DNA of 27,566 nucleotides from Bacillota bacterium (GTDB lineage Bacteria; Bacillota_C; Negativicutes; JAEYSJ01), in NCBI GenBank assembly GCA_023434855.1, contig JAEYSJ010000155.1, forward strand, positions 1-27,566. The letters run 5' to 3'. Below are positions 2 to 19,144 of the stretch, piece by piece. The notes under the pieces were generated by a model, which saw only the letters and a program-made list of their open reading frames with translations, was not told the DNA's origin and searched no databases. Within the stretch, counting starts at the first letter, position 1, and each line of letters opens with the position of its first letter. Both the position numbers and the translations under genes were made by a program.

Positions 2-904
2 TTGTTTTGCGAGTTTGGTGGCACAGAATTTAGATTAAACCAAATAATCAATTCAGATTCGAATTATGACATTGAAGTCCAGTATAAGCGGCAAGATGGC
101 AAAGTATTAAACTTAATCATCAACGCCAGCCATTTCAATATGGACGAAGATGCCAACAGCATGGGCTATATCATCACGCTAAAAGATATTACGGAAAAAC
201 GCTTGTTTACAAAAGAACTATCACGTTTGGATCGATTAAATCTTATTGGGGAAATGGCTGCCGGTATCGGTCACGAAGTTCGCAATCCAATGACAACAGT
301 GCGTGGTTATTTGCAAATGTTTCAGCTTAAGAAAAAGTATGCTGATGATCATGAACAATTCCATATTATGATAGAAGAACTGGATAGGGCCAATTCGATT
401 ATTACCGAATTCTTATCACTTGCAAAAAATAAGCGAGTTGAACTAAAACCAGGTAATTTAAACGGAACTATCCATGCGTTATTCCCTTTGTTGCAAGCTG
501 ACGCCATGCGTTTGGGATATAAAATTCAAACAGATATAGGAGATATTCCTGTTATCTGTTATGACGATAAAGAAATACGGCAACTTATATTGAATTTGGT
601 GAGAAACGCCATGGAAGCTATGAAATTAGGCGGAGCAGTGTCCATTAAAACATACGCAGATAACGATGAAATAATATTAGCTGTGCAAGATACCGGAACT
701 GGCATACCAAAACATATAATGGATAAATTAGGTACTCCCTTCATGACAACCAAAGATGGTGGAACTGGTTTGGGATTATCAGTTTGCTATCGGATCGCCG
801 AAAGGCATGGCGCAAAAATTGATGTCAAAACTTCTTCAGAGGGAACGACATTTTTTATTAAATTTAAGGCTATGATAGCAATCTGTACGACTCATTACGT
901 CTGA
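2..904 (+). CDS. PAS sensor histidine kinase, 5' end missing
   Basis: C-terminal part of a sensor histidine kinase; the reading frame is open to the left edge, so the true start lies outside the window. Residues 1-60 read as the end of a PAS domain, closing with the usual ITLKDITEK. The phosphoacceptor helix carries GHEVRNPMTTVRGYLQMF, with the histidine codon at 272-274. The ATPase domain has an N box (LILNLVRNAMEAM), a G1 box (DTGTGIP) and a G2 box (GGTGLGLSVCYRIAERHG). It would autophosphorylate on His and pass phosphate to a response regulator not visible here. This H-box style resembles the Bacillus KinA/KinB and ResE-like kinases and differs from the AHDFR type in the three kinases further right, so it belongs to another pathway. 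The family is certain; signal and partner are unknown. Confidence 0.93.
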   Translation: MFCEFGGTEFRLNQIINSDSNYDIEVQYKRQDGKVLNLIINASHFNMDEDANSMGYIITLKDITEKRLFTKELSRLDRLNLIGEMAAGIGHEVRNPMTTVRGYLQMFQLKKKYADDHEQFHIMIEELDRANSIITEFLSLAKNKRVELKPGNLNGTIHALFPLLQADAMRLGYKIQTDIGDIPVICYDDKEIRQLILNLVRNAMEAMKLGGAVSIKTYADNDEIILAVQDTGTGIPKHIMDKLGTPFMTTKDGGTGLGLSVCYRIAERHGAKIDVKTSSEGTTFFIKFKAMIAICTTHYV

Positions 905-1212: not shown

Positions 1213-2913
1213 ATGACAGATTTATCAAGTACTTCTTTCCAGCAGCAATTACCTAAATGTCCTACCGGAATCCAAGGTTTAGACGAAATTACCAATGGCG
1301 GCCTGCCTAAAGGCCGCACTGCACTAGTATGTGGTTCAGCCGGATGTGGTAAGACCCTGCTGGCGATGCAATTTTTAGTGAACGGTGCCAAGTTATACAA
1401 TGAGCCGGGTGTCTTTATGTCCTTTGAAGAAAATGAAAGAGAGCTTGCCGAAAATGTTGCTTCCCTCGGCATCAACTTAGAAGGCTTGGTAACTGAGAAC
1501 AAAATATGCCTGGACCATGTGTATTTCGACAAAAGTGAAATCGCTGAAACCGGCGAGTATGACCTGGAAGGATTGTTTGTCCGCCTGGAATATGCCATTA
1601 AAACCATTGGTGCCAAGCGGGTCGTGCTTGATACCATTGAGGCCATTTTTTCGGGGCTGGCCAATGAGACTATTATCCGTGCCGAGCTTCGCCGGTTGTT
1701 CCGCTGGCTCAAGGACAAAGGTGTCACCGCTATTGTCACCGGCGAAAAGGGAACCGGGAGCTTTACCCGCCACGGCATTGAAGAATACGTTTCCGACTGT
1801 GTCATCCAGTTGGACCATAAAGTATTTGATCAGATTTCTACCCGCTGGCTCAGGATTATTAAGTACCGGGGCAGCGCTCACGGAACGAATGAGTACCCCT
1901 TTCTTATCGACGAGGAGGGCATCTGCATTATGCCGATCACTTCTGTCGGTCTGGAAGCACATGCCATAACAGAACAGATATCTTCCGGCATTGAGCGTCT
2001 TGATACCATGCTTGGCGGCAAGGGATTTTACAAAGGCAGTAGCATCCTTATCTCCGGTACAGCTGGAACAGGTAAATCGACGTTGGCCGCCTATGCGGCT
2101 GATGCCGCCTGCCGCCGGGGCGACCGCTGCCTATACTTTGCGTTCGAAGAATCCGCGCACCAGATTATCCGCAATATGAGGAGCGTCGGTCTTGATATGA
2201 AACAATGGCAGGAGCAGGGATTGCTGCGCTTTACGGCCGCCCGTCCCACCCTGTTAGGACTCGAAATGCACCTTGTCAGGATATACAAACAGGTGCATGA
2301 ATTTAAGCCACAGCTGGTGATTCTTGATCCTATTTCCAATTTAAGTTCAGCCGGGGAAACCTCTGAGGTTAAAATTATGCTGACACGGCTGCTGGATTTC
2401 CTGAAATTGCAGGGAATTACTGCAATTTTTACTAATTTATCTTCGTCGAAACATCTGGAGGAGACGGAGATGCAGACTTCCTCGCTGATCGACACCTGGA
2501 TTGCCTTGCGGGATATCGAAAGCAACGGCGAACGGAACCGGGGACTGTATGTCCTCAAATCACGCGGCATGGCCCACTCCAACCAAATCCGCGAATTCAT
2601 CCTGTCAGACCGTGGTATAGAGCTTGCTAACGTTTATTTGGGAGCAGACGGCATTTTCACAGGCTCGGCTCGCTATGCTCAGGAAGAGAAAGATAAGGCC
2701 GCACGGTTGCTGCGCCAGCAGGAAATTGAACGCAAACAGCGCGAAGTCGAAAGGAAACGCGCCAAGCTGGAAGCGGAAATTGCCGCTCTGAAGCTGGCCT
2801 TTGAAGCCGACCAGGAAGAACTGGAAAAACTTATGGCTGAAGAATGCCTGCAACTCAACGTACTTGCCGGCAACCGGAAAGAAATGTCCATGTTACGAAA
2901 AGGTGATAAATAG
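1213..2913 (+). CDS. kaiC: KaiC-like double-domain RecA-type ATPase/kinase
   Basis: Tandem KaiC domains, about 566 residues. Domain 1 has Walker A GSAGCGKT (41-48), the catalytic Glu pair 72-73 and a Walker B ending in VVLDTIEAIF. Domain 2 has Walker A GTAGTGKS (282-289), Glu pair 312-313 and Walker B VILDPISNL. At the position of the cyanobacterial phosphosites Ser431-Thr432 this protein has Ser423-Ser424, and the Thr426 equivalent is Thr418, so autophosphorylation is plausible. The last 75 residues are a charged coiled coil in place of the KaiA-binding tail. ATG 1213 is preferred over GTG 1204 because GGTGA sits about 6 bases upstream of the ATG. Two KaiB genes follow after 18 bases. KaiC proteins form hexamers and act as ATP-driven signalling hubs; whether this one keeps time or only senses energy or stress state cannot be read from sequence. 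Confidence 0.95.
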   Translation: MTDLSSTSFQQQLPKCPTGIQGLDEITNGGLPKGRTALVCGSAGCGKTLLAMQFLVNGAKLYNEPGVFMSFEENERELAENVASLGINLEGLVTENKICLDHVYFDKSEIAETGEYDLEGLFVRLEYAIKTIGAKRVVLDTIEAIFSGLANETIIRAELRRLFRWLKDKGVTAIVTGEKGTGSFTRHGIEEYVSDCVIQLDHKVFDQISTRWLRIIKYRGSAHGTNEYPFLIDEEGICIMPITSVGLEAHAITEQISSGIERLDTMLGGKGFYKGSSILISGTAGTGKSTLAAYAADAACRRGDRCLYFAFEESAHQIIRNMRSVGLDMKQWQEQGLLRFTAARPTLLGLEMHLVRIYKQVHEFKPQLVILDPISNLSSAGETSEVKIMLTRLLDFLKLQGITAIFTNLSSSKHLEETEMQTSSLIDTWIALRDIESNGERNRGLYVLKSRGMAHSNQIREFILSDRGIELANVYLGADGIFTGSARYAQEEKDKAARLLRQQEIERKQREVERKRAKLEAEIAALKLAFEADQEELEKLMAEECLQLNVLAGNRKEMSMLRKGDK

Positions 2914-2931
2914 TTTTTGGGGAGGACGACT

Positions 2932-3246
2932 ATGAGTATAGATGAAAATTTAACCAGCCAAGACCTAGAATCGGAGACATGGCTGCTCAGGCTGTACATC
3001 GCCGGACAGACGCCAAAATCGGTTCGGGCGATTGCCAACTTGCGGGAAATCTGCCAAACATACCTGGAAGGTAAATATAGTATTGAAGTAGTTGACCTGA
3101 TGGAAAACCCGGAAATCGGCCGGGAGGATCAAATCCTGGCGATTCCGACCCTTGTACGTAAACTTCCACCTCCTATCACCAAGATTATTGGGGATTTATC
3201 AGATGTTGAGCGGGTACTCGTAGGGCTAAGCGTTATCCGAACTTGA
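2932..3246 (+). CDS. kaiB: KaiB-like thioredoxin-fold protein, copy 1
   Basis: About 104 residues of clear KaiB type: [16 protein letters not shown] near the N terminus, [20 protein letters not shown] in the middle, then LPPP and [10 protein letters not shown] near the C terminus. In KaiB these regions support the switch to the fold that binds the KaiC CI ring. The ATG at 2932 has GGGGAGG six bases upstream, so the in-frame TTG at 2917, which would lie in the ribosome site, is not used. It keeps the classical PPP and GDLSD motifs, making it the more KaiB-like of the pair. It would bind the KaiC just upstream and modulate its ATPase or the access of kinases. Translation is tightly packed with its neighbours. 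Confidence 0.93.
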
Positions 3247-3258
3247 GGAGTGGTCGTA

Positions 3259-3576
3259 ATGACACCAAGGATTAAGTCGAATAAGCAAGATGGAGTAGCC
3301 AACGTTCCGCACAAGAGCTATGACCTTTGGTTGTATATCGCCGGCGCTTCACCGCGGTCTCAGAGAGCGGTTGCCAACATAAGAAAACTGTGCGAAAACT
3401 CGCTATACGGAACTTGCAACCTCAAAGTAGTCGACATCTTGCAGCAGCCGCAATTGGCTAAAGAGGACCAGATCATTGCTGTCCCCACCCTAATAAAGAA
3501 ATCGCCGAAACCTGTACGCCTGTTCATCGGAGATATGTCTAATAAAGATGACATACTTTTAGCACTGGAGGGCTAG
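3259..3576 (+). CDS. KaiB-like thioredoxin-fold protein, copy 2 (divergent)
   Basis: About 105 residues, starting 12 bases after the first KaiB; TGAGGAG lies 8 bases before ATG 3259. It keeps LWLYIAGASPRSQRAVANIR, the VVDILQQPQLAKEDQII segment and PTL. The proline block reads SPKP in place of LPPP, and the C-terminal motif reads GDMSNKDDILLAL in place of GDLSDxExVL. About 20 N-terminal residues precede the fold. The tandem copies look like an old duplication with divergence of the part that refolds in KaiB, so the second copy may bind a different partner (kinase input domain or KaiC CII) or act as a non-switching version. It ends 4 bases before the kinase start, so the two are probably translationally coupled. 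Confidence 0.9.
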   Translation: MTPRIKSNKQDGVANVPHKSYDLWLYIAGASPRSQRAVANIRKLCENSLYGTCNLKVVDILQQPQLAKEDQIIAVPTLIKKSPKPVRLFIGDMSNKDDILLALEG

Positions 3577-3580
3577 TGTG

Positions 3581-5659
3581 ATGACGACATCGGATACCAA
3601 ATTGAAAAAATATGAAGAATTGGTCGCCGATAATAATGAACTTCGCTGGCGGCTAAAAGAAGCGAATAGTATTATTAATGCCATCCGGGATGGAGCGGTA
3701 GACGCTCTATTGCTGCCAGGAGATAAGGGTGACCAGGTTTATGTTCTGCAGGGCGCCGACCTTGTTTACCGGCAAATCGTTCAGGAAATGCAGGAGGGGT
3801 ATATTACCGTCAGTTTGAGTGGGACGATTCTCTTTAGTAACCAGAACTTCGCCAGAATAATCCGGCAGCCCCTGGAGGAAGTCACGGGAATGACCCTCTG
3901 GGAGCTCTTAACGCTATCCGACCAAGAGACTATCCGGAGGAATTTGGCAGAAGGCAAATACCGCTTCAAACTTGAGGTAAACCTTTCGACGGCCAATAAT
4001 ATAGTTGTTCCGGTACTACTTTCTGTTGCCGAGTGTTACCTTGAAGACACTTGGTTTATTTGCATTGTGGTAACTGATCTTACTGAGCAAAAAAAGAGTG
4101 AACAGCGCCTCATGCGTCAGATTTTCGACCAGGCAGCCGAAGCCATCATTGTCTGCGATGAGCGCGGTCGTATCCTGCGTGTCAATCGGACTGGAAGCAG
4201 ATTTTTTGGAATGAACCTGTTACAGACTTTATTTGACCAGACAATCCCCCTGTTTCACGCGTCGGATGGCAGGCGTTTCCGGGCGGAAGAATCATTAGGT
4301 AGTGAAACTGCAACCGGCGTGGAAGTTACATATCTAGACCCTGTAGGCAAGATACTTACTTTTATAATTGAAGTTGGCCGTCTAAACGGTGAAGAAACAT
4401 CGGGAATTAAGGGATTCCTGATCACACTGTCTAATATTTCAGAGCGTAAGGCGGCTGAGGCGGCTCAGCGGTCCGCCAACGAACAGTTGAAAGCAAGCGA
4501 GGCTCAGTTTAGAAGCCTTTTTGATCATATGATTAATGGCTGTGCTTATTACAAAGTGATATTTGATGAGAACGGAATGGCTTATGATCTATGCTGCCAA
4601 CATGTAAACCCAGCATACGCGGAGTTTCTGGGTTATCCGGCCAGGGAATTGACAGGCAGACGCGTATCGGAAATCTTTCCCTTGCTAAATAGCAAAGAAC
4701 GCAGCGACTGGCGGCAAACTTATATAGAAGTTGCTTTATCCGGCCGGTCAGTAAACTTTATTCAGTATTTCGACCATCATAATAAATGGTATTCCATTAC
4801 TGCATATAGCCCTGAAAAAGGGGCCGTTGTCGTTATCTACTCCGATATTACCGAAAATAAACTGGCCGAGGAAGAAATCCGCCGGTATGCAAAGCACCTT
4901 GCGGAAGCTAACTCCGAACTGGCAGCAACTAATCAGGAACTTAAGTCATTTTCGAACATTGTGGCTCATGATTTTCGCACCCCCATGGTCAATTTAAAAG
5001 GTTTCTCCAAAGAACTGAGTCATTCTCTCGCCGACCTGCAGGAGATTCTTTGTGGCCAAAAAATGCCGGATAAGATCAATAAAGCAGTGGACAGGCTTCT
5101 TATGAAAGAGGTGCCTGACTCACTGCAGTTTATTAATTCCGCGGTAGATAGACTGGATAGAATGGTTACCGCCCTCCTTAAATTAGCCCGCCTAGGTCGA
5201 CGCGAGATGAACTATCAGCAGGTCGCTATGAACGATCTAGTCAACACCGTTGTGCGCTCCTTCGCTCATCAGACTGAGCAAAAGGGTATTCGTTTGGAAG
5301 TTGGCTTGTTGCCGCATATCGAGACCGACTTTTTGGCCATGGAACAGATTATTGGGAACTTGCTGGATAACGCCATAAAATATTTAAAGCCTGGTGAGCC
5401 GGGAGAAATAAGCATAGCGTGCACAGATAACGGCACTGAATACTTATTTAGCATTCAGGATAACGGGCGCGGAATCGCGGCCGAGGACCAGGAAAAGGTA
5501 TTTGAAATTTTTGGCCGGGCAGGTAAACAGGATGTACCTGGAGACGGTATGGGCTTAGCATGTGTCAGGACGCTGGTAAGGCTTCTGGGCGGCAAGGTGT
5601 GGTTTGAATCGGAGCCTGGGGTGGGGACGAAGATGAGCTTTACCATACCTAAAAGATAA
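3581..5659 (+). CDS. Soluble triple-PAS sensor histidine kinase
   Basis: About 692 residues with no membrane segment, so cytoplasmic. After a short coiled N terminus containing NSIINAIRDGAVDAL come three PAS regions (about 60-170, 175-295 and 305-425), a short coiled coil, the HisKA helix with phosphoacceptor His463 in IVAHDFRTPMVNLKGF, and an ATPase domain with NLLDNAIKY, DNGRGI and GDGMGLACVRTLVRLLGG. The H-box style is that of phytochrome-like kinases (Cph1 type), which usually pair with Rcp1-like receivers, and such a receiver is the next gene. ATG 3581 or GTG 3578 can serve the GGAGGG at 3567-3572; the ATG has the better 8-base spacing. Being 4 bases after the second KaiB, it is the most likely direct kinase partner of the Kai proteins, though it lacks the KaiB-like input domain of SasA. 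Confidence 0.93.
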   Translation: MTTSDTKLKKYEELVADNNELRWRLKEANSIINAIRDGAVDALLLPGDKGDQVYVLQGADLVYRQIVQEMQEGYITVSLSGTILFSNQNFARIIRQPLEEVTGMTLWELLTLSDQETIRRNLAEGKYRFKLEVNLSTANNIVVPVLLSVAECYLEDTWFICIVVTDLTEQKKSEQRLMRQIFDQAAEAIIVCDERGRILRVNRTGSRFFGMNLLQTLFDQTIPLFHASDGRRFRAEESLGSETATGVEVTYLDPVGKILTFIIEVGRLNGEETSGIKGFLITLSNISERKAAEAAQRSANEQLKASEAQFRSLFDHMINGCAYYKVIFDENGMAYDLCCQHVNPAYAEFLGYPARELTGRRVSEIFPLLNSKERSDWRQTYIEVALSGRSVNFIQYFDHHNKWYSITAYSPEKGAVVVIYSDITENKLAEEEIRRYAKHLAEANSELAATNQELKSFSNIVAHDFRTPMVNLKGFSKELSHSLADLQEILCGQKMPDKINKAVDRLLMKEVPDSLQFINSAVDRLDRMVTALLKLARLGRREMNYQQVAMNDLVNTVVRSFAHQTEQKGIRLEVGLLPHIETDFLAMEQIIGNLLDNAIKYLKPGEPGEISIACTDNGTEYLFSIQDNGRGIAAEDQEKVFEIFGRAGKQDVPGDGMGLACVRTLVRLLGGKVWFESEPGVGTKMSFTIPKR

Positions 5660-5696
5660 TATGACAATTAATATCGTTTTTGAGAGGGGTTAAATT

Positions 5697-6125
5697 ATGC
5701 AACCAATTAAAATATTACTTGTAGAAGATGATCCCGGTCATGCCCGCTTGATTGAAAAGAACTTGCGCCGCTCAGGGATCATGAATGAAATCATAGCTTT
5801 CGATAATGGACAAAGTGTTCTTGATTACGTGAATACTGCTTGCTTCGAACAGGAATCGAACGAAGACTTGCTAATACTGTTAGATTTGAATTTGCCTATT
5901 CTTGACGGGTATCAAGTACTGGAACGAATCAAAGCCAATGAGCAGACAAAAACAATTCCTGTTGTTATTTTAACAACTACGGATATTCCACAGGATATCA
6001 ATCGCTGTTATGCATTAGGCTGCAATATTTTCATTACAAAGCCCATTCAGTATGAAGATTTTTGCGCAGCTATTCAAAATTTAGGTTTAATGCTATCTAT
6101 TGTGAAAGTCCCTTCGACAAAGTGA
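5697..6125 (+). CDS. Rcp1-like single-domain response regulator
   Basis: A 142-residue stand-alone receiver. Acidic pocket Glu10-Asp11-Asp12 (LLVEDDPGHARLIEKNL), phosphoacceptor Asp63 in LLDLNLPILDGYQVL, conserved Thr in VVILTTTD and Lys in FITKPI. There is no DNA-binding or enzyme output domain. The DDPGHARLIEKNLR start and the LP-xLDGYQVL pattern are typical of Rcp1, the partner of cyanobacterial phytochrome kinases. GAGAGGGG lies 7-14 bases before the ATG. Set between three kinases of the same transmitter type, it is the natural common phosphate acceptor and would act through protein contacts or as a phosphate shuttle. Its final target is not visible in the window. Confidence 0.95.
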   Translation: MQPIKILLVEDDPGHARLIEKNLRRSGIMNEIIAFDNGQSVLDYVNTACFEQESNEDLLILLDLNLPILDGYQVLERIKANEQTKTIPVVILTTTDIPQDINRCYALGCNIFITKPIQYEDFCAAIQNLGLMLSIVKVPSTK

Positions 6126-6200
6126 GTTAGTAGCTAGTAAGATTTGTCCTACATCTAGGGTGAAAGCGAGTAAAGTTATCCGGAAGGGAAGTGCCTGGCT

Positions 6201-8144
6201 TTGAAACAAAAAGTAACTAAGTTAATACCTGCAACCCTTACCGGCATTCTTGCCAGGGGTAAGCGGTCAGAGACAGCCAGATTAGCGATTTTATCACAAG
6301 CCGCAAGCAGGCTGCTTGTAAGCGACTTTCCCGAACAACTTGTCCAACCTCTGGCTGAGCAGGTAATGGCGGAACTAAATTGTCAGTTCTTTTTTAATTT
6401 TATTCCTTACCCGGAGAAAGGCTGTCTGCGACTCAATGCCTACGCCGGGATTCCGGCTGCAGCCGCCCGGGAAATTTTGCTGCTGGATTATGGTGTTGCG
6501 GTATGTGGTACCGTAGCCCAACGGGGAAAGCGAATCGTAAAGGAATGTATCCAGAGCCTGGATGATCCTATTGTGGCGCTCGTTAAATCCTTTGGAGTGC
6601 GGGCTTATGCGTGTCATCCGCTTCTTTCCCCCAAAGGTAACATTCTCGGAACACTTTCTTTTGGAACCATAGAGCGGGACAGTTTCCATGATGACGAACT
6701 GGCCTTGATGCAGACGCTGTCAAACCAGCTAGCGGTCGCTTTCCAGCGCATACAGGCGGAGAGAGAGCTGCGGAAACTCAACGCAGAATTGGAACAAGAG
6801 ATTATGCAAGGGTACGCTGCCCAACAACAGATTCGTGAGCAGGCCGAGTTGCTGGGAAATGCGAATGACTACATTATGGTACGGGACATGGACAGCCGGG
6901 TGGTCTATTGGAACCTGGGAGCGGAGAAGGGCTATGGCTTTATGGCGACAGAAGCAGTGGGCCGAATTACCCATGAACTGCTTAAGACCGAGTTTCCTGA
7001 TCCTTTGGCTGTGATTAATGAGAAATTACTCGAATGGGGGCACTGGGAGGGTGAACTATTGCACACCCGTAAGGACGGGGTGCGGGTTATTGTGGAAAGC
7101 CACTGGACTCTCAAGCGGGACGAGGCAGGCAAGCCTGTATCAATTATGGAGATCAACAATGACATCACTGCGAAAAAGCAAGCGGCTGAGCAATTGCAGG
7201 ATGCGAACAGGCGGTTGGAGCAATTCAACATTCAACTCGAGTCTATGGTGGCGGAGAGGACAGCACAACTTCAGGAGATTAACGCAAAACTGCAGTTGGA
7301 GATAGCAGAGCGGCAGGCAGCACAGGAAAAGCTGGCAACTAAGAATCAAGAGCTTGCGGCGAGCGAGCGACGGCTGCAGCGGTCCGTTGACGAATTATCA
7401 GAGATCAACAAGGAATTAACCTCTTTCACCAACAGTATTGCCCATGATTTCCGCAGCCCAATGGTTAACTTACAGGGATTTACATCAGAACTTGGCCGGT
7501 CTCTTACAGAACTAACGCAGGTGCTTGACGGGGTTGAATCTCTCCTTCCGATTGAAGTTCAGACGAAAGTGGCTGAATTGCTCAATGAGGATGTTACGGA
7601 TGCGCGGCAGTTTATCAATTTGTCGGTTAACCGGCTGGATAGGCTGGCAAAATCATTGCTTGAATTATCCCTGATTGGCCGTCGCGAAATGACTTTTACA
7701 GAAGTTGATCTGGGTAAACTTGTAAACAGACTCATAAAATCCCACCACCGTCAAATTGCCGGACAGAAGCTTCGGATAGCGGTTGGTGCGTTGCCAAAGA
7801 TCCAAACCAACTATCCGGCTATGGAACAGATAATTGACAACTTATTGGATAACGCCATAAAATATACAGAACCTAGCCGGCCAGGAAAAATCGAAGTTAC
7901 CTGCCTTGAAAAAGAATATGACTACATGGTGAGTATTAAGGATAATGGGCGTGGCATTGCTTCCGTGGACCATGAGAAGATTTTTGAGATTTTCCGACGG
8001 TCAGGGAAATACGACCAGCCAGGGGACGGCTTGGGTCTGGCCTATGTACGGGCTTTGATCAGAAAGCTGGGCGGTAAGATATGGCTTGAATCAGAGCTTG
8101 GAACGGGTACTCAAATGATGTTTACGGTGCCCAAAATTCAATAG
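6201..8144 (+). CDS. Cytoplasmic GAF-PAS sensor histidine kinase
   Basis: About 647 residues. An N-terminal GAF domain (roughly 22-180, with the ACHPLLSPKGNILGTLSFG end) is followed by a PAS domain (about 210-330), a long coiled coil rich in Glu/Gln (about 330-405), HisKA with His415 in IAHDFRSPMVNLQGF, and an ATPase domain with NLLDNAIKY, DNGRGI and GDGLGLAYVRALIRKLGG. The start is taken as TTG 6201; GGAAGGGA lies 11 bases upstream and the next in-frame ATG (6366) would cut into the GAF domain. It has no membrane segment. GAF and PAS domains bind small ligands, haem or other cofactors; no phytochrome-type chromophore Cys context is obvious. The transmitter is closely related to those of the kinases on either side, suggesting that it feeds the same receiver. 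Confidence 0.92.
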   Translation: MKQKVTKLIPATLTGILARGKRSETARLAILSQAASRLLVSDFPEQLVQPLAEQVMAELNCQFFFNFIPYPEKGCLRLNAYAGIPAAAAREILLLDYGVAVCGTVAQRGKRIVKECIQSLDDPIVALVKSFGVRAYACHPLLSPKGNILGTLSFGTIERDSFHDDELALMQTLSNQLAVAFQRIQAERELRKLNAELEQEIMQGYAAQQQIREQAELLGNANDYIMVRDMDSRVVYWNLGAEKGYGFMATEAVGRITHELLKTEFPDPLAVINEKLLEWGHWEGELLHTRKDGVRVIVESHWTLKRDEAGKPVSIMEINNDITAKKQAAEQLQDANRRLEQFNIQLESMVAERTAQLQEINAKLQLEIAERQAAQEKLATKNQELAASERRLQRSVDELSEINKELTSFTNSIAHDFRSPMVNLQGFTSELGRSLTELTQVLDGVESLLPIEVQTKVAELLNEDVTDARQFINLSVNRLDRLAKSLLELSLIGRREMTFTEVDLGKLVNRLIKSHHRQIAGQKLRIAVGALPKIQTNYPAMEQIIDNLLDNAIKYTEPSRPGKIEVTCLEKEYDYMVSIKDNGRGIASVDHEKIFEIFRRSGKYDQPGDGLGLAYVRALIRKLGGKIWLESELGTGTQMMFTVPKIQ

Positions 8145-8210
8145 ATTTAGATTAAACAATAGTCGTATTTTATACATTTTATTTTTATTCCAATTTTTTG
8201 GAGTGATGAC

Positions 8211-10349
8211 ATGACAAATTTGTTAAATAATACGTACAAAGGTTGGATATCTATTCTATTAGGAGCTTGCTTCTTATTTGCGGCAGGCTATCTGGGTACA
8301 AAAAACTTCTTGATTTTTCATTCCTTTGCTGAAACGTTCACTATCATCGTCAGTTATAGCATTGCCTTCATAGTTCTTAATACATATGAAAGTATAAATA
8401 ACAATTTTATTCCTATTATCGGGGTTGCTTACTTTTGTGCTGGTTTTTTCGATGTAATACACACACTAAGTTACGAAGGATTAAATATAATCCCCAATGC
8501 CGGTGCAGGGCTGGCACCCCAAATGTGGATTATTGCCAGATATCTGGACAGTATTGGGATGCTGCTTGCCGGAATATCGTTTCATAAGACTTTTAAATTA
8601 CCTTATGTGCTGATTACTTATGTTTGTGTCTCAATAATAGCATTATTATCTGTATTTTATTGGCATGTATTTCCGCTGACATTTATCCCCGGTCAGGGAC
8701 TCACTCCCTTTAAAGTGTACAGTGAGTATGCTATCTGCCTTATTCTTATTGCCAGCCTTATACTATTGATATGGCACAAAAGCCGGTTTCAGCCGCGAGT
8801 GTACCGGCCGCTGCTGATTTTTTTCCTTGTTTCCATTTTTACTGAGCTTTCATTAACTTTCTACAAAACCAATGGTGGGTGGGAGAACGTAATTGGCCAT
8901 TTGTTAAAAATGACGGCTTACTTCTTCTTATACCGGGCGGTTGTAGTAACCACTTTACAAGAGCCATATGACAGAATAAGCGGCCAAGCGAAAGAATTAC
9001 ATGAAACTAACGCGACACTGGAAGAAGAAATTACGGAACGGCAGGCGGCTCAGGAAGCACTTTGTCAATTGAACGCCGAACTTGAAAATAAAGTTTTGGA
9101 ACGTACGAGCCAGTTGCAAGAGATTAATGCAACACTGGAAGAAGAAATAATGGAACGGCAGGCGGCGGAAGCGACGCTAAATGAGACCAACGCAGCCCTC
9201 AAGGCGAGTGACGCCCGTTATCGCAGCCTTTTTGACAACATGCAGAATGTTTTTTCTTTACGAAAAGTTATTGTAGATGAGGATGGCCGACCGGTCGACC
9301 TTTTATACCTTGAGGTCAACCCGGCGTTCGAGGTGCTTTACGGCCTGAAACCGTCTGACGTTGTGGGCAAACTGTTCACTCAAGTCTTTCCGCACTATCA
9401 TGAGGAGCCCTTTGACTGGATCAAAGAAATAGGGGAAGTGGCACTTACAAGTGAACCGAAGGCTTTTGTAAAACATGTTGCTTTTTTGAACGGTTGGTTT
9501 CATTTTGCTCTGTATAGCCCCGAACCGGGATTGGTTGCTATGATTACGATTGATATTACAGCAAGAATGAAGGCCGAGGAAGCCCAAAAGAGGTATGCAG
9601 AGGAGATAGCGGCAACAAACCAGGAACTCCAGAATTTTACGAATATCGTCGCCCATGATTTTCGGTCACCCATGGTTAATCTCAAAGGGTTTTCGAAAGA
9701 ACTTGGAAACGCACTGAAGGACCTCAAAAAGGCCATAAATGATGATGCGGAATGTGATCGCGAAAAGGCGAACGAAATATTGGATAATGAGGTACCGGAA
9801 TCGCTGGATTATATTCGAACGTCTGTAGACAGATTAGACAGAATGGTAAATGCCCTGTTGAAGCTGGCCCGAGTCGGCAGGAGGGAAATGGTCTATAAAC
9901 CGGTAGAATGCGGTGAACTAATAACCGGTATCTTCCGTTCTTTCGAACATCAGATTCAAAAACAGGGAATCCGGGTTGAGGTCGGTCCAATGCCGATAAT
10001 CGAAACTGATTCCCTGGCCCTGGAACAGATTATCAGTAATTTGGTTGATAACGCTATTAAATACCTTGATCCCGGTCGACCAGGGAAAATTGAGATAATG
10101 ACTGCAGATGACGGCGATAAATATCTATTCACAGTTGGCGACAATGGGCGAGGAATTGCTCAGGAAGACTGCGCGAAGATCTTTGACCTGTTTAGCCGCG
10201 TAGGCAAGCAGGATAAGCCGGGTGAAGGGCTGGGGCTAGCCTACGTCCGAACCTTAGTCCGCCAATTAGGTGGGAGAATTTGGTGTGAATCGGAGTTAGG
10301 TGTTGGGACGAAGATGAAATTTACGATTTATAAACAGTCTTGTCAATAA
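8211..10349 (+). CDS. Membrane MASE3-PAS sensor histidine kinase
   Basis: About 712 residues. The first 255 residues form seven or so membrane helices with features of the MASE3 sensor domain: GFFDVIHTLSYEG, then PQMWIIARYLDS. Two similar coiled-coil segments containing EEEI(T/M)ERQAA repeats follow (about 265-330), then a PAS domain (about 335-455), HisKA with His482 in IVAHDFRSPMVNLKGF, and the ATPase domain (NLVDNAIKY, DNGRGI, GEGLGLAYVRTLVRQLGG). A GGAGTGA site lies just before ATG 8211. It is the membrane branch of the three-kinase set; MASE3 ligands are not known to me. It is the last gene before a terminator at 10383, and so ends the Kai operon. Confidence 0.92.
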   Translation: MTNLLNNTYKGWISILLGACFLFAAGYLGTKNFLIFHSFAETFTIIVSYSIAFIVLNTYESINNNFIPIIGVAYFCAGFFDVIHTLSYEGLNIIPNAGAGLAPQMWIIARYLDSIGMLLAGISFHKTFKLPYVLITYVCVSIIALLSVFYWHVFPLTFIPGQGLTPFKVYSEYAICLILIASLILLIWHKSRFQPRVYRPLLIFFLVSIFTELSLTFYKTNGGWENVIGHLLKMTAYFFLYRAVVVTTLQEPYDRISGQAKELHETNATLEEEITERQAAQEALCQLNAELENKVLERTSQLQEINATLEEEIMERQAAEATLNETNAALKASDARYRSLFDNMQNVFSLRKVIVDEDGRPVDLLYLEVNPAFEVLYGLKPSDVVGKLFTQVFPHYHEEPFDWIKEIGEVALTSEPKAFVKHVAFLNGWFHFALYSPEPGLVAMITIDITARMKAEEAQKRYAEEIAATNQELQNFTNIVAHDFRSPMVNLKGFSKELGNALKDLKKAINDDAECDREKANEILDNEVPESLDYIRTSVDRLDRMVNALLKLARVGRREMVYKPVECGELITGIFRSFEHQIQKQGIRVEVGPMPIIETDSLALEQIISNLVDNAIKYLDPGRPGKIEIMTADDGDKYLFTVGDNGRGIAQEDCAKIFDLFSRVGKQDKPGEGLGLAYVRTLVRQLGGRIWCESELGVGTKMKFTIYKQSCQ

Positions 10350-10382: not shown

Positions 10383-10412
10383 AAAAAAGAGGCGCATAGC
10401 CTCTATTTTTTA
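10383..10412 (+). terminator. Terminator of the Kai-kinase operon
   Basis: Stem AGAGGC (10388-10393) with GCCTCT (10399-10404), 5-base loop, then a T-rich run. An A run precedes the stem. It lies 34 bases after the MASE3 kinase stop. Confidence 0.8.
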
Positions 10413-10545: not shown

Positions 10546-11115
10546 ATGTCAGCAGAAATTATTTGCGGTAAATTGAAAGAAGCTTGGGAAAGTATCATTC
10601 AGTGCTGGCAGTATAAAATTGCTGTCAGCCTTTTTTCGAACATTATAACATTTCTATTTGGCGAGATAGATGTTGGTTTCATTGCACTCTGGTCATTAGT
10701 ATTTCTTGATTTGTTTTCCCGCTGGGCCTGCGTTACGAAAAAACATATTGAAGATAGTCAACTACAATGTGGCTGGATTGCCGGCTTCCTAAATGCTTGG
10801 GAAACAGGTGTGCTCAATTCGCGTGAAATGCGGTTTTCCTTTGTGCCCAAAATCGGCGTATATCTGGGGTTGCTGATTGCCGCACACTTGCTGACTCTTA
10901 TTATTCAGCCTAAAGTTTTGTTGGGAGTTGAGTGGTCGCAAGTTCCGGCCAATGTTGTTACTATGTACCTGGCAATTACCGAGTTTATGAGTATTAATGA
11001 AAATTTTGTGGAAATGGGCTATGGTTTTTTGGCTCCCTTATCGCGTTTCTTTTGTAAAAAACGCGACTCACTGGTGGGGAATGATAATCAGGATACAGGA
11101 GATAAACGACAGTGA
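10546..11115 (+). CDS. Holin-family-like small membrane protein
   Basis: About 189 residues, with hydrophobic helices near 30-65 (KIAVSLFSNIITFLFG, then VGFIALWSLVFLDLFSRW), 100-125 (KIGVYLGLLIAAHLLTLII) and 135-150. The arrangement, a DLFSRW segment followed by a charged linker, a conserved NSREM.F.FVPKIGVYLG segment, another helix and a late ITEFMSINEN, matches the phage-holin 4 (TcdE/CidA-like toxin-secretion holin) group as I know it. GGAGGGG ends five bases before the ATG. No endolysin, tail or other phage gene is nearby, so it is an orphan and may serve protein release or cell-wall turnover rather than phage lysis. The tail is polar and charged (KKRDSLVGNDNQDTGDKRQ), as expected of a cytoplasmic end. 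Confidence 0.6.
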   Translation: MSAEIICGKLKEAWESIIQCWQYKIAVSLFSNIITFLFGEIDVGFIALWSLVFLDLFSRWACVTKKHIEDSQLQCGWIAGFLNAWETGVLNSREMRFSFVPKIGVYLGLLIAAHLLTLIIQPKVLLGVEWSQVPANVVTMYLAITEFMSINENFVEMGYGFLAPLSRFFCKKRDSLVGNDNQDTGDKRQ

Positions 11116-12975: not shown

Positions 12976-13386
12976 ATGACAAACGGAAAAATGAAAAAAG
13001 TATCACCATCCATTGATGAGTGGCTCAAAGAAGCAAAAGCGGATCCAGCAGCTTTACAGGAAGGCATGTTTTTGGTTCATAATGGCATTGTTCGCCAGAC
13101 ACCTAAAGCCCAGGTTCGTCAAGGACGTGGTGACGGCTCGCTGGTAAAGGGAATGGAATTCGCGTATGATGCCGCAAAAGTTGATGCAGTCATTGCTGAA
13201 ACCTATAAAATGGAGGGCATCTTCTATATTAAGGTTTGGCTAAATGAAGGCCAGCTTACTCTGGGCGATGATATAATGTATGTATTGATCGGCGGTGATA
13301 TCAGGCCGCATGTTATTGATGCCTTACAATTCCTGGTTAGCAAGATCAAAAACGAATGTGTTACAGAAATCGAACTAAAGCAGTAA
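12976..13386 (+). CDS. MoaE-like protein (molybdopterin synthase large-subunit family)
   Basis: About 136 residues. The pattern FLVHNGIVRQTPKA, then YDAAKVDAVIAETYKMEGI, VWLNEGQLTLGDDIMYVLIGGDIRPHVIDALQFLV and KIKNECVTEIE follows the MoaE fold: the G-x-VR start, the H-R-G-x-L-x-x-G-E-like strand and the final helix. In true MoaE the active site has lysines near a W-K-x-E motif at the C terminus. Here the end is NECVTEIELKQ and no such motif is present, so catalysis is uncertain. GGAGAG lies 9 bases upstream of the ATG. No moaD, moaA or molybdoenzyme gene is in the window. It may be a shortened clostridial MoaE homologue with another role. Confidence 0.65.
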   Translation: MTNGKMKKVSPSIDEWLKEAKADPAALQEGMFLVHNGIVRQTPKAQVRQGRGDGSLVKGMEFAYDAAKVDAVIAETYKMEGIFYIKVWLNEGQLTLGDDIMYVLIGGDIRPHVIDALQFLVSKIKNECVTEIELKQ

Positions 13387-13700: not shown

Positions 13701-13759
13701 CAAATAAATTGGTTAATAATGGAAGGATTGTGCTATTTTTACCATTGGGGTGTATAAAT

Positions 13760-15175
13760 ATGGCTTGGCTTAAAAATTTGAAGATAGCACATAAGCTTGT
13801 GTTGTTTTTTCTGTTTGTGTTTTTGCTGTTTACAGGATTGGGACTGTTTAATTATCAAGTAAGTGGTAATGTCTCTAAAAGTATGCAAAAGATGTATGAG
13901 TTAAGAATGCTATCAATATCTTTACTTAATGAATGTGCAATCAAGCATAAAGATACAGAGTCTTTAGCCCTTCAGGCGCTTATGACACCTAATAACAAGG
14001 CTAAAATTATTAATCTTACGGCAGTTATAGAAGAAAATTATCAAGATATCGAAGAATTGCTTAAAAAATACGAAAAAGGTGATTTGGATGAGGTTGAACA
14101 AGCCTTGCTTGTCCAGCTTATGCAAGAACAAACAGAATACCATGACAGTCTTAGGGCTGCTAATGATTTGATTTTACAAAACAGGCGGAAAGAAGCGTAC
14201 GAGTCTTATGTGGGGAATTCCTCCGTACACGCAAATAATATAAGTGTCCTACTCAGGGTAATGACCGATCACAATAAAAAAATGGCTGAAGAACAATATC
14301 TGGAAGCCAACAGACTGGCAAATATGTCTTTAATAATAATATATTTAATTCCTTTTATCGGGGCTTTTTTTATTTTGCTGTTAGCGTATTTTATCAATAA
14401 AAATTTAACAGGGCCGCTGCAAACCTTACTGAACCAAATAATAAAAGTGGCTGAGGGCAATTTTGATAACCTTAAAAAGAGGATCAAGGTTGACTCCGCC
14501 GATGAAATAGGATTATTGGCACAAAGCTTTAACAATATGTCGCAAACCATAGATAAATACATGAGAGAGCTCACGGAAAAAAATGAAATAATTAAAGCCC
14601 AAGCCAATCAAGATTCCTTAACAGGTCTGCCAAACAGGAGGATGTTGGAGAGCACATTGAACAACCTTCTGCGTGAAACCAATTTTATGCAGAGTAAACT
14701 TGCCATATTCTATATTGATTTGGATAATTTTAAAACTGTCAACGATACAATGGGACATCTCTGGGGCGATAGGGTTCTTAAACAGGTGGCAAAGCGTCTC
14801 GAGAAAGGTAGTCTCAAGTGTGATCTTATTGCCAGATTGGGGGGAGACGAGTTTGCTGTCGTAGCCGCTAACCTTAAAAACAGGCAAGAAGCGGAATTTA
14901 TTGCGCAAAGTATTATTGAAGCTCTTGAGCAACCGTTATTCAGCGGGAAAAATCAAGTTTATATCACTATAAGTATCGGTATTAGTTTGTTTCCGGATCA
15001 TGGTGAAAACAGTACTACATTATTTAATGCGGCTGATACCGCTTTATATCAAGCAAAAAGAAGCGGAAAAGAAAATTTCCAGTTTTACACTGACGAATTG
15101 CGTGGTAAAGTATTAAACCGCAGTCAAATGGAAGAAGACCGTGCAATAGAATCAGATAACCTGGGAAATATTTAG
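13760..15175 (+). CDS. Membrane diguanylate cyclase with four-helix-bundle sensor, HAMP and GGDEF
   Basis: About 471 residues. Membrane helix 1 (about 12-34), an extracytoplasmic helical region of about 160 residues resembling the 4HB_MCP sensor, membrane helix 2 (about 195-215), HAMP, then a GGDEF domain: DSLTGLPNRRMLES, FYIDLDNFKTVNDTMGH, and an intact signature ARLGGDEF. It should make c-di-GMP from two GTP. The usual inhibitory site RxxD just before the signature reads LKCD, so product inhibition through this site is probably lost. ATG 13760 is chosen because GGGGTG lies 8 bases upstream and it opens directly into MAWLKNLKIAHK; an upstream TTG at 13709 adds an unlikely tail. The next gene encodes a binding lipoprotein that may bring a ligand to the sensor. 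Confidence 0.93.
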   Translation: MAWLKNLKIAHKLVLFFLFVFLLFTGLGLFNYQVSGNVSKSMQKMYELRMLSISLLNECAIKHKDTESLALQALMTPNNKAKIINLTAVIEENYQDIEELLKKYEKGDLDEVEQALLVQLMQEQTEYHDSLRAANDLILQNRRKEAYESYVGNSSVHANNISVLLRVMTDHNKKMAEEQYLEANRLANMSLIIIYLIPFIGAFFILLLAYFINKNLTGPLQTLLNQIIKVAEGNFDNLKKRIKVDSADEIGLLAQSFNNMSQTIDKYMRELTEKNEIIKAQANQDSLTGLPNRRMLESTLNNLLRETNFMQSKLAIFYIDLDNFKTVNDTMGHLWGDRVLKQVAKRLEKGSLKCDLIARLGGDEFAVVAANLKNRQEAEFIAQSIIEALEQPLFSGKNQVYITISIGISLFPDHGENSTTLFNAADTALYQAKRSGKENFQFYTDELRGKVLNRSQMEEDRAIESDNLGNI

Positions 15176-15196
15176 TTGGAGGCAAACATAAACAGG

Positions 15197-16255
15197 ATGA
15201 AGAAATTGCTGTCACTGTTAACTTTACTACTATTATTGCCGGGGTGTATTAAGCTGTTGCCGGGCCCGCAAACCGGCAATAGCCACACCCTGAACGTAAG
15301 CGTGCTGTTCTCCGAAGGAGGCCGGGGAGACCACGGTTATAATGATATGGCCCATCTTGGTGTTGAACAGGTCAAAGCGGATTTTGGCAGTGCTGTTACT
15401 ATTAAATATTTTGATTTTACTGCTAATTATGACTTTTTGCTGCGTTTGCAGGGTCAAAGCAGTATGGATGTTGTAATTATCATCGGCGGCTATAACTATA
15501 TTGACAGTATAATAAAAATAGCGAAAGAGTTTCCTAAAACAAGATTTGTTGTAGTTGACGGCTATATTTCCGGTTTAACAGAGCATGACAATATTACCTG
15601 TATCAACTTCAAAGTTCAGGAAGGCTCCTTTTTAGTCGGTGCAATGGCGGCTTTAAAGAGCACGTCCGGTAAGATTGGCTTTATTGGCGGCATAAAACGT
15701 CCGGAAATCGAAAGGTTTGAAACAGGTTTCACTGCCGGGGCAAAATATATTAAGCCTGAGATAAAAATCATAGCTGACTATATAGGGAATACTTTAGCTT
15801 CCTTCAAAAACTTTGAAAAGGGCGAGGAATTGGCGGAGGAGCAATATAAAAATGGTGTTGACGTGATATTTCATGCAGCAGGTGCTTCAGGCTTTGGCGT
15901 TATTTCTGTTGCAGAGAAACAAAAGAAATGGGTCATTGGTGTTGATACAGACCAAGCTTTGCTTTTGCCCACCGACCAGAGACCGTATATCCTGACAAGT
16001 ATGATTAAAAAAGTGGATACTGCCGTTTACAATGCCATAGCGGCTTCGATAAACAAAGAAATCAAAGGTGGCTATATCACATATGGCCTAGCGGAAAATA
16101 GCGTGGGTTATGCCGAAAATCAATACAACGCGGTAGAAATCAAAGAAAGTAAAGAGACCGTGGAAAAAATTAAAGCAAAGATAATTGCTAAGGAAATTAT
16201 TATTCCTGATAGGACCGGTTCCCCGTTTGTTACGCAGGGTAGCTTAGTGGAGTGA
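15197..16255 (+). CDS. BMP-family substrate-binding lipoprotein
   Basis: About 352 residues. A lipoprotein signal MKKLLSLLTLLLLLPGC places Cys17 in an LPGC lipobox. The mature protein has the BMP/PnrA pattern: VSVLFSEGGRGDHGYNDMAH, DVVIIIGGYNYID, RFVVVDG, KIGFIGGIKRPEIERFETGF, DVIFHAAGASGFGV and KKWVIGVDTDQ. Family members bind nucleosides or similar small molecules and usually serve ABC importers. No ATPase or permease gene is present here. It follows the diguanylate cyclase stop by 21 bases on the same strand. ATG 15197 is preferred; GGAGG at 15178-15182 is a little distant (14 bases), and TTG 15176 would overlap the ribosome site. It may act as the ligand receptor of the cyclase. Confidence 0.9.
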   Translation: MKKLLSLLTLLLLLPGCIKLLPGPQTGNSHTLNVSVLFSEGGRGDHGYNDMAHLGVEQVKADFGSAVTIKYFDFTANYDFLLRLQGQSSMDVVIIIGGYNYIDSIIKIAKEFPKTRFVVVDGYISGLTEHDNITCINFKVQEGSFLVGAMAALKSTSGKIGFIGGIKRPEIERFETGFTAGAKYIKPEIKIIADYIGNTLASFKNFEKGEELAEEQYKNGVDVIFHAAGASGFGVISVAEKQKKWVIGVDTDQALLLPTDQRPYILTSMIKKVDTAVYNAIAASINKEIKGGYITYGLAENSVGYAENQYNAVEIKESKETVEKIKAKIIAKEIIIPDRTGSPFVTQGSLVE

Positions 16256-16310: not shown

Positions 16311-17003
16311 CTATGGCCGCATTTCATAATATTGTAATAATTCACCGACGGTGACTATGTCATACCCCATTTGCCGGAGACGGTCAATGATAATTCCCAC
16401 GGCCTCTGGTGTAGAAGTTGCGCAATCACCTTCATGAAGCAAGATTATCGCACCCGGTTCTATTTTAGATAAAACTCCATCAACAATTTGCGCTGCATTT
16501 TTATTATCCCAGTCCCGGGGATCGATGGACCAAAGGATTGTAGTATAACCCCGCTTATAGAGATCTCCAACGATACGGTCATTATATCCTCCACCGGGTG
16601 GACGGATAAACGACGGCTTCGAAGCTACCGCAGAAAATGCTTTTTCCGCCTTATCAATCTCACTGTTAAATTCCTCTTTACTCAATTTTGAAAGAAAGCG
16701 GTGATTGTAACTATGGCTTGCAATTTCGTGGCCGCTGGCAATAATCGCCATTGCTAAATCCGGATTTTTTTCGACACTGGAACCTAACAGGAAAAAAGTT
16801 GCATGGACATTCTTATTATTAAGTACTGCCAGTAGGGTCATAGTTGTTCGTGGATGTGGTCCATCATCAAAGGTCAGGGACACTACTTTATGAGTGGTGG
16901 GCACCTTCTTTACTGCTTTATCGGAATGTAGCAACGTGCCATTAATTACTACTGTTATAGTAAGAAGCCCCAGGAAAAATATTCCCAGAAATCTTCCGCC
17001 CAT
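16311..17003 (-). CDS. NodB-family polysaccharide deacetylase, intact motifs
   Basis: At least 230 residues with an N-terminal membrane anchor (GIFFLGLLTITVVI). NodB motifs are complete: SLTFDDGPHPRTT, the metal histidines in HEIASHSYNH, RPPGGGYN, WSIDPRDWD and ILLHEGD. It should remove acetyl groups from peptidoglycan or a related N-acetyl-hexosamine polymer, outside the membrane. The start is unclear. ATG 17003 is given, but a perfect AGGAGGTGA (17051-17059) lies about 50 bases further upstream, and at the right distance from it the frame offers only ATC (17045) or ATT (17042). The frame is open back to 17165. It is the last gene of a minus-strand group with the degenerate NodB protein and the WG-repeat protein. 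Confidence 0.88.
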   Translation of the reverse strand: MGGRFLGIFFLGLLTITVVINGTLLHSDKAVKKVPTTHKVVSLTFDDGPHPRTTMTLLAVLNNKNVHATFFLLGSSVEKNPDLAMAIIASGHEIASHSYNHRFLSKLSKEEFNSEIDKAEKAFSAVASKPSFIRPPGGGYNDRIVGDLYKRGYTTILWSIDPRDWDNKNAAQIVDGVLSKIEPGAIILLHEGDCATSTPEAVGIIIDRLRQMGYDIVTVGELLQYYEMRP

Positions 17004-17106
17004 TAAATGGCATTTTACAATGGAACTTAAGTTGCGTACAATGATATCGGTCACCTCCTGGTAACAGCTTAGTCTATCCTGTCCCCAAACTGGGGAGTGT
17101 CCGAAT

Positions 17107-18997: not shown

Positions 18998-19144
18998 CCC
19001 ACTAACTCCTCCATTTGCAATACAAATGCTTATACGGTCAGGATGCGGGCCAGCCTGGGTTATCATAAATATAGGCCTAAGTAATACTCGATATGAACAT
19101 ATGCTGATCGTCAGGGTTATATGAATAAATCCCTATAGCGGAGC

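Follow-up and report, generated by a model that had tools for sequence, protein, structure and literature searches.

A stretch of 27,566 nucleotides from a bacterium of the class Negativicutes (GenBank assembly GCA_023434855.1, contig JAEYSJ010000155.1; hereafter the window, meaning this whole stretch) carries seven consecutive genes for KaiC, two KaiB proteins, three histidine kinases (HK1, HK2, and HK3) and a single-domain receiver. Comparison with related loci suggests that these genes probably constitute a KaiA-less timer operon of the KaiC_RS type with a lineage-specific two-component extension. The operon core is of a known kind and the extension is a variant; the new part is a KaiB-linked module at the start of HK1 that recurs with exchanged outputs, and the comparison across relatives holds more interest than the gene layout. 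We also lean slightly toward a broader proposal, in which KaiBC timers of this type outside cyanobacteria would report through one KaiB-reading segment plus PAS module, a socket whose outputs evolution would have exchanged many times. These outputs would include sigma-54 activators, a LuxR-type regulator, histidine kinases with transmitters of several types and, in direct fusions of KaiB to PAS, cyclic-di-GMP enzymes. In the window, the socket would bear a kinase of the TcsA type, and this kinase would have arrived together with its receiver before multiplying into a three-sensor array.

The KaiC Protein and the Two KaiB Proteins

The seven same-strand genes proposed in the first-pass annotation were all found in the claimed order with Pfam support (Table 1), and the E-values of KaiC, both KaiBs, MASE3 and the receiver are far beyond chance. 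The intergenic gaps from KaiC to HK3 measure 18, 12, 4, 37, 75, and 66 bases, which bears out the claimed range of 4 to 75, and the genes can indeed be described as one operon-like block. The further claim of a terminator only at the end is borne out in so far as the six gaps contain no plus-strand terminator-like site and one site follows HK3, but the number of such sites in the window is near that of shuffled sequences (16 observed vs. 13.0), hence this is weak evidence. Missing from that annotation were the same-strand kinase gene upstream of kaiC and the KaiB-linked PAS module. Approximately 300 bases separate the upstream kinase from KaiC, and this interval contains promoter-like sequences (1042-1071 and 1114-1143) that are consensus matches only (32 promoter-like sites were observed in the window vs. 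21.8 in shuffles). Rfam gave no match in the window at gathering scores.

Table 1. Features of the KaiBC operon and its flanks, in window coordinates.
Feature	Coordinates	Strand	Description and support
Upstream histidine kinase	2..904	+	PAS plus a transmitter that we take to be KinA-like; Pfam HisKA/HATPase_c; cut by window start
KaiC	1213..2913	+	566 aa, KaiC_RS/KaiC2 type; Pfam KaiC E 8.9e-113
KaiC phosphosite motif TSSLID (Ser423/Ser424)	2476..2493	+	Aligned with the serine pair that 8fwi has as Glu
KaiC C-terminal tail	2668..2910	+	Coiled coil by homology; aligned to KaiC_RS tail up to residue 545
KaiB-a (first KaiB)	2932..3246	+	Pfam KaiB E 2.5e-25; groups with R. sphaeroides KaiB in tree
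KaiB-b (second KaiB, divergent clade)	3259..3576	+	Pfam KaiB E 1.6e-26; tree
HK1, KaiB-linked PAS effector	3581..5659	+	PAS-PAS-PAS-HisKA-HATPase; H-box AHDFR aa 462-466
KaiB-linked segment (..NAIRDGAVDAL..) and first PAS of HK1	3632..4120	+	Diagnostic module; alignment A1
Single-domain receiver, Rcp1/TcrA-like	5697..6125	+	No output domain; Pfam Response_reg E 5.5e-20
HK2, GAF-PAS kinase	6201..8144	+	TTG start; HK1-type transmitter
HK3, MASE3 membrane sensor-PAS kinase	8211..10349	+	HK1-type transmitter; Pfam MASE3 E 1.4e-72
Terminator-like hairpin after last gene	10388..10404	+ (scored on both strands)	Consensus match only

The KaiC of the window has two KaiC ATPase domains with P-loops at residues 41-48 and 282-289 and FEE motifs at 71-73 and 311-313; all of these are features of the KaiC_RS/KaiC2 type. 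Its best match in the PDB is 8dba (E 2.5e-200), aligned over residues 13-545 and thus reaching the coil, followed by 8fwi (E 3.9e-199); apart from 8db3, the third entry of the same group, the next KaiC entry is found only at E 4.2e-115. The entry 8dba is the Rhodobacter sphaeroides KaiC of PMC10076222, and that article characterizes the KaiC_RS clade by mostly Ser-Ser phosphorylation sites and a tail approximately 50 residues longer. Both features are present in the window protein, with the sites defined as in that article and the coil of the approximately 50-residue longer C-terminal tail assigned by homology. The article also describes KaiA-independent phosphorylation and an hourglass driven by ATP/ADP, and by analogy the window KaiC would be expected to behave in this way.

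The nearest named relative of this KaiC is that of Anaerospora hongkongensis at 72% identity (from a genome-contig scan in which 9 loci were found), which fits the first-pass description of the source as a likely anaerobe of the Negativicutes. A scan of viral contigs gave six stretches that matched a pattern, none of which encoded a KaiC relative.

Both KaiBs match the KaiB family above the curated Pfam cut-off. A tree was built from 88 KaiB sequences, leaving out those of two KaiBC loci, L128 and L129, and fragments of up to 70 residues, which loses one second KaiB, that of L125. In it, all 38 second KaiBs group in a single clade (support 0.927) with four KaiBs found alone at their locus. The KaiBs of R. 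sphaeroides and Thermosynechococcus and both fused KaiBs discussed below lie outside this clade, together with KaiB-a. The two types differ in motifs: KaiB-b proteins frequently carry DIYQQP and LPLPLRRFIGDM. A KaiB-b-type protein is the sole KaiB found beside KaiC in L093, L112, and L117, and also in L122, which is cut by a contig end. The labels KaiB-a and KaiB-b are our own and unrelated to Synechocystis KaiB1-3.

Conservation of the Core Across Phyla

KaiC was found at E 1e-60 or better in 5 of 380 genomes of the class to which Anaerospora belongs, namely Anaerospora itself (G001), Sporomusa termitida (G305), Anaeroselena agilis (G309), a genome that is probably Dendrosporobacter (G081), and G299. 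The order kaiC-kaiB-kaiB-PAS kinase occurs in three of these five relatives, and a KaiB-PAS-GGDEF-EAL fusion precedes kaiC in the other two. At E 1e-120, KaiC was found in 24 of 395 genomes from the phylum of a Deltaproteobacteria bin (25 loci) and in 14 of 288 genomes from that of a Pedosphaera bin, the Verrucomicrobia (15 loci). Neighborhoods were read for 24 of the 25 loci in the former (L004 included; a KaiC fragment of G463 at a contig edge omitted) and for 13 of the 15 in the latter (L005 included; L118 and L122 truncated at contig ends and omitted). Two KaiB genes stand behind KaiC in 19/24 and 12/13 of these neighborhoods, counting L125, where the second KaiB is broken, and L100, where it reads on through unknown bases to the next gene. 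A gene with the KaiB-linked module comes next in 22/24 and 13/13, three of the latter matching weakly, as judged with a module profile built from HK1 of the window, Anaerospora, and L005. By these neighborhoods, the kaiC-kaiB-kaiB-PAS effector core is widespread and its order is conserved across phyla.

Two of the Verrucomicrobia loci deserve separate description. In L121 (2-13692) and L123 (3926-17585), a single strand encodes kaiC, two kaiB genes, the module kinase, a haem oxygenase, a bacteriophytochrome, a lone receiver, and three more kinases. The domains of L121 were assigned by Pfam, and L123 was judged by its like order and sequence starts. These loci may represent a KaiBC operon with its own red-light input.

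The KaiB-Linked Module

HK1, which sits 4 bases behind KaiB-b, opens with a segment whose consensus over the 21 sequences of alignment A1 is EAEETLxAIRxGEVDALVVSGxxGDQVFTL, followed by a PAS domain. HK1 matches the A1 profile at E 1.1e-67, a value that is not independent as A1 includes HK1, while HK2 and HK3 give no match to it at E 10. A search of 379 Negativicutes genomes with the first 180 residues of HK1 (E 1e-10) returned five genomes, identical to the five that bear KaiC, and of the six matches therein, five are within or downstream of a KaiB; the sixth is a solitary S. termitida kinase. In the 395 genomes from the phylum of the Deltaproteobacteria bin, the profile gives 30 matches at E 1e-20. 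The full module is covered in 25 of them, at E 2.3e-46 or better; every one of these 25 has a KaiB frame ahead on the same strand within approximately 540 bases, and in L133 (the locus of L100) KaiB and module share one frame. The remaining five matches begin at model position 35-41 and show no KaiB in the available 1.5 kb flanks. With at most nine candidates scored per genome, and a profile made from KaiB-linked genes, this search could overlook unlinked members.

The same linkage is seen when no profile is used. With tblastn at E 1e-8, the HK1 module matched 11 of 72,556 plasmid records, all of which are among the 14 records with KaiC and have the module within 1 kb of kaiC; nine of the 11 records come from Cereibacter (Rhodobacter) sphaeroides, and only three genera are represented. 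A full module lies directly behind KaiB in five of six plasmid KaiC loci (KD131, Pararhizobium, Rhizobium, Sinorhizobium, and Falsirhodobacter). A large protein database yielded 46 module proteins, some of which may be KaiB-unlinked. From these sequence searches, the segment plus PAS module is nearly a KaiB signature.

In the AlphaFold model of the module, the mean predicted local distance difference test (pLDDT) score is 80; the PAS domain is good, and the N-terminal helix and hairpin are of low confidence, with 55-64 for the first 50 residues. In L119, L124, and L125, the gene behind KaiB retains the N-terminal segment and carries a different PAS domain. Because these three loci keep the segment and differ in the PAS domain, the segment may be the KaiB-specific part rather than the PAS domain.

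Exchanged Outputs and KaiB Fusions

The outputs attached to the module were assigned by a Pfam scan of 25 of 44 module proteins that preferred those without an ATPase-profile match, and the resulting counts are therefore not frequencies. Nine proteins carry HisKA with or without a receiver (those of the window, L104, L105, L107, L112, L114, L119, L121, and L126; the frame of the L114 protein yielded no ATPase domain), eight carry HisKA_3, five a sigma-54 activator with a Fis-type helix-turn-helix, one a LuxR-type helix-turn-helix, and two GGDEF-EAL. Close relatives of HK1 also differ in this respect: P0128, P0130, P0133, and P0136 share its N-terminal half (280-315 residues) at 43-54% identity and P0129 shares the module at 55%, and the transmitters of all five differ. 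P0130, P0136, and P0129 are probably on the same contigs as KaiC proteins 78-81% identical to that of the window. At L095 (4324-7737), a module-bearing kinase gene and a module-bearing sigma-54 activator gene stand in succession, separated by a third short KaiB frame.

KaiB is also found fused to such outputs. The KaiB-PAS-GGDEF-EAL fusions lie directly upstream of kaiC (L016:4903-6903 and L017:4779-6824) in two Negativicutes, G305 and G081, on contigs of 5.2 and 1.3 Mb; an initial reading of these two as KaiB-kinases was wrong. A search of 5.8 billion proteins for fused KaiB domains gave six hits among 65 candidates of similar full length, comprising four KaiB-PAS-GGDEF-EAL proteins, one KaiB-module-kinase (P0125), and one KaiC-KaiB protein (P0126). 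P0125 joins KaiB to the whole module and a kinase and comes from a metagenomic contig of 2.6 kb. We discarded P0126 as probably a frameshift, its middle looking out-of-frame by eye, and regard the KaiB-b-PAS-sigma-54 fusion in L100 as doubtful because its KaiB part ends in unknown bases (read as X).

The Receiver and the Kinases

The transmitters of HK1, HK2, and HK3 are mutually 49-52% identical over 259-423 residues, as compared with only 21-26% between them and the transmitter part of the upstream kinase. The receiver, with motifs VEDD, LLDLN, and TKP, has its best PDB match in 3heb (E 4.9e-42), and Rcp1 is matched at E 8.3e-20. Its best plasmid relatives reach 54% identity, a value for the Azospirillum locus L160, which was left out of the transmitter comparison; in each of the three annotated regions read, the receiver gene adjoins one for a kinase. 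On plasmids of Mesorhizobium, Shinella, and Sinorhizobium medicae, the transmitter of the kinase encoded immediately ahead of the receiver shows 36-43% identity to those of HK1-3, and the receiver itself 50-51% to that of the window. The names TcsA, TcrA, and FsrR come from the annotation of the S. medicae record, and both the receiver of the window and the transmitters of the nearby kinases are of this TcsA/TcrA pair type. This likeness of all three transmitters and the receiver to a single type of pair is the best evidence that HK1-3 could share the receiver, a credible arrangement. The best receiver match in S. termitida (36%) was rejected as the same pair, as the nearby kinase frame is only 26% identical to the HK1-3 transmitters, and a family-level search with the HK3 transmitter, covering one genome, gave a match of 31%.

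The upstream kinase is 68% identical over 290 residues to the kaiC-linked kinase of Anaerospora (L019:2619-4169) and 72% over 292 residues to the lone kinase of S. termitida. The notion that it is the only conserved partner, with HK1 as an extra, is too simple, because HK1 has the module 4 bases behind KaiB-b and the closest kin of the upstream kinase are kaiC-linked in Anaerospora and lone in S. termitida.

Weighing the Extended Operon Against Alternatives

Several observations weigh against a timer operon extended in this manner. Within the 19.5 kb around KaiC, all five Negativicutes relatives lack the receiver, HK2, and HK3, and because of this absence HK2 and HK3 may be unconnected with KaiC. 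The G+C content of the receiver gene, 0.375 vs. 0.433-0.498 in the other six genes, hints at a different origin. Promoter-like consensus matches within the HK2 gene (11/12, at 7834-7863) and at the receiver/HK2 junction (9/12, at 6114-6143) make internal promoters possible. The three Negativicutes kaiC-linked kinases have the transmitter type of the upstream kinase and not that of HK1, and for this reason two KaiB-linked kinases, the upstream kinase and HK1, may compete. As for the module, it is missing from the KaiBC loci L128 and L129 and from the Aquisphaera plasmid locus L170 (KaiC 36% identical), its match is weak in L119, L124, and L125 (39-48 bits), and one S. termitida kinase has it far from any KaiB.

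The first-pass annotation had proposed that PAS/GAF, membrane, and KaiC signals could all meet on one output-less receiver and that this layout is the window's best candidate for an undescribed system. The first of these proposals is upheld as to the receiver, which lacks an output domain and which three kinases could plausibly share on the strength of their TcsA/TcrA-type likeness. As to the second, the kaiC-kaiB-PAS kinase core is conserved but already known in print for Rhodopseudomonas palustris and R. sphaeroides, and the extension occurs in 0/5 of the Negativicutes relatives; the core thus passes the gene-neighborhood comparison suggested at the time, and the receiver-HK2-HK3 part fails it. 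By the relatives compared, this part is a lineage-specific extension. An integrated hub that computes all these inputs on one receiver, as a selected system, falls just on the doubtful side of an even call. The transmitter and receiver type held in common speak for it, as does the recurrence of a multi-kinase extension with a lone receiver and a bacteriophytochrome in L121 and L123, but it is not conserved in the window's own class among these relatives, and HK2 and HK3 may act apart from KaiC.

It is unlikely that the kaiC-kaiB-kaiB-HK1 timer and an independent receiver-HK2-HK3 set are simply unrelated neighbors whose transmitter likeness reflects common origin only. The missing extension in relatives, the low G+C content of the receiver gene, the two promoter-like sites, and the lack of the module in HK2 and HK3 would all agree with such an arrangement, but HK1 shares the HK2/HK3 transmitter type (49-52%), which none of the nine compared module-bearing relatives does, and the gaps of 37-75 bases contain no terminator-like site. 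Slightly less likely still are Kai proteins acting as stress or energy sensors without timing, with KaiB-b a thioredoxin-like adaptor without affinity for KaiC; the separation of the KaiB-b clade from the KaiBs of R. sphaeroides and Thermosynechococcus speaks for this, but KaiC retains its tail, its phosphoserines, and both copies of the P-loop and FEE motifs, and in four loci (one cut by a contig end) the KaiB-b type is the only KaiB found beside KaiC.

Proposed Mechanism

In the timer operon with a two-component extension, which we prefer, KaiC would sense the ATP/ADP state via its own phosphorylation cycle, as PMC10076222 shows for KaiC_RS and as homology suggests here. One KaiC state would then bind KaiB-a and possibly KaiB-b, and KaiB-bound KaiC, or released KaiB, would act on the N-terminal module of HK1 and set its kinase activity. 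We propose this route from KaiB through the module to HK1 because of the KaiB linkage of the module and the fusions of KaiB to PAS (G305 and G081) and to module and kinase (P0125). HK1 would phosphorylate the receiver, as the match to a TcsA/TcrA-type pair suggests, and HK2 (with a soluble signal) and HK3 (with a membrane signal), having the same transmitter type, may feed or drain the same receiver. The receiver would signal in turn to a component outside the operon, either by contact between proteins or by phosphorelay. The system is probably an hourglass or energy-state timer and not a self-sustained clock.

Comparison With Known Systems

SasA is a KaiC-binding kinase of cyanobacteria that has a KaiB-like N-terminal domain. 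The likeness of HK1 to SasA lies only in the proposed role of reading the Kai complex and driving phosphotransfer; Pfam finds no KaiB match in HK1-3, and HK1, having no KaiB-like domain, is not classed as a SasA-type kinase. P0125, which joins KaiB, module, and kinase, is nearer to the SasA build.

The occurrence of KaiB and KaiC beyond cyanobacteria, with KaiA confined to cyanobacteria, is described in PMC5520375, as are kaiC-kaiB with a kinase or GGDEF/EAL gene immediately downstream in PMC3164672 and the kaiC-kaiB-PAS/histidine kinase operons of R. palustris and R. sphaeroides in PMC4794148 and PMC6627678. In searches of open-licence literature by title and abstract opening, no paper described a KaiB-linked PAS module with exchanged outputs or a KaiB-PAS-GGDEF-EAL fusion, which is weak evidence of absence.

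Among the closest known systems is that of R. sphaeroides KD131 (kaiC-kaiB-PAS/HWE kinase, the KaiBC_RS hourglass; PMC10076222 and PMC4794148), which has the same gene order, a Ser-Ser KaiC with a coil, and a kinase with the full KaiB-linked module (E 1.1e-28). It differs in having one KaiB, a kinase annotated as HWE type, and no receiver or extra kinases behind. The Anaerospora locus L019 (kaiC-kaiB-kaiB-PAS-PAS-kinase) resembles the window in its KaiC (72%), KaiB-a (70%), KaiB-b (55%), and a module kinase directly behind, whereas its kinase transmitter is of the upstream-gene type and no receiver, HK2, or HK3 is nearby. The TcsA-TcrA(-FsrR) system of S. medicae, whose acid-responsive function is the annotation of its record, shares the receiver (50%), the transmitter (39-42%), and a kinase adjoining the receiver gene, but has another sensor part and no KaiC or KaiB annotated in its 6 kb flanks. 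L121 and L123 match the window in that further kinases and a lone receiver come behind the same core on a single strand; a likely phytochrome light input and other kinases set them apart.

Other Genes in the Window

Behind the operon, the window encodes a Phage_holin_4_1 family protein (10546-11115), a MoaE-like protein with a weak match (12976-13386; E 2.4e-6), and a 4HB_MCP-HAMP-GGDEF diguanylate cyclase with a gene for a Bmp-type binding protein directly after it (13709-16255). These are followed by two overlapping tandem frames for polysaccharide deacetylases (16311-17847) and a protein with nine WG-repeat matches (17906-19066).

Significance

How KaiA-less KaiBC timers signal to the cell is, to our knowledge, an open question. 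The module found behind KaiB from Negativicutes to R. sphaeroides offers a testable interface, and the structures of R. sphaeroides KaiB and KaiC are already solved. If outputs are truly exchanged on this module, the timed process of each bacterium would be predictable as transcription, phosphorelay, or cyclic-di-GMP signaling, and the natural KaiB-PAS-GGDEF-EAL fusions would link the timer directly to a second messenger.

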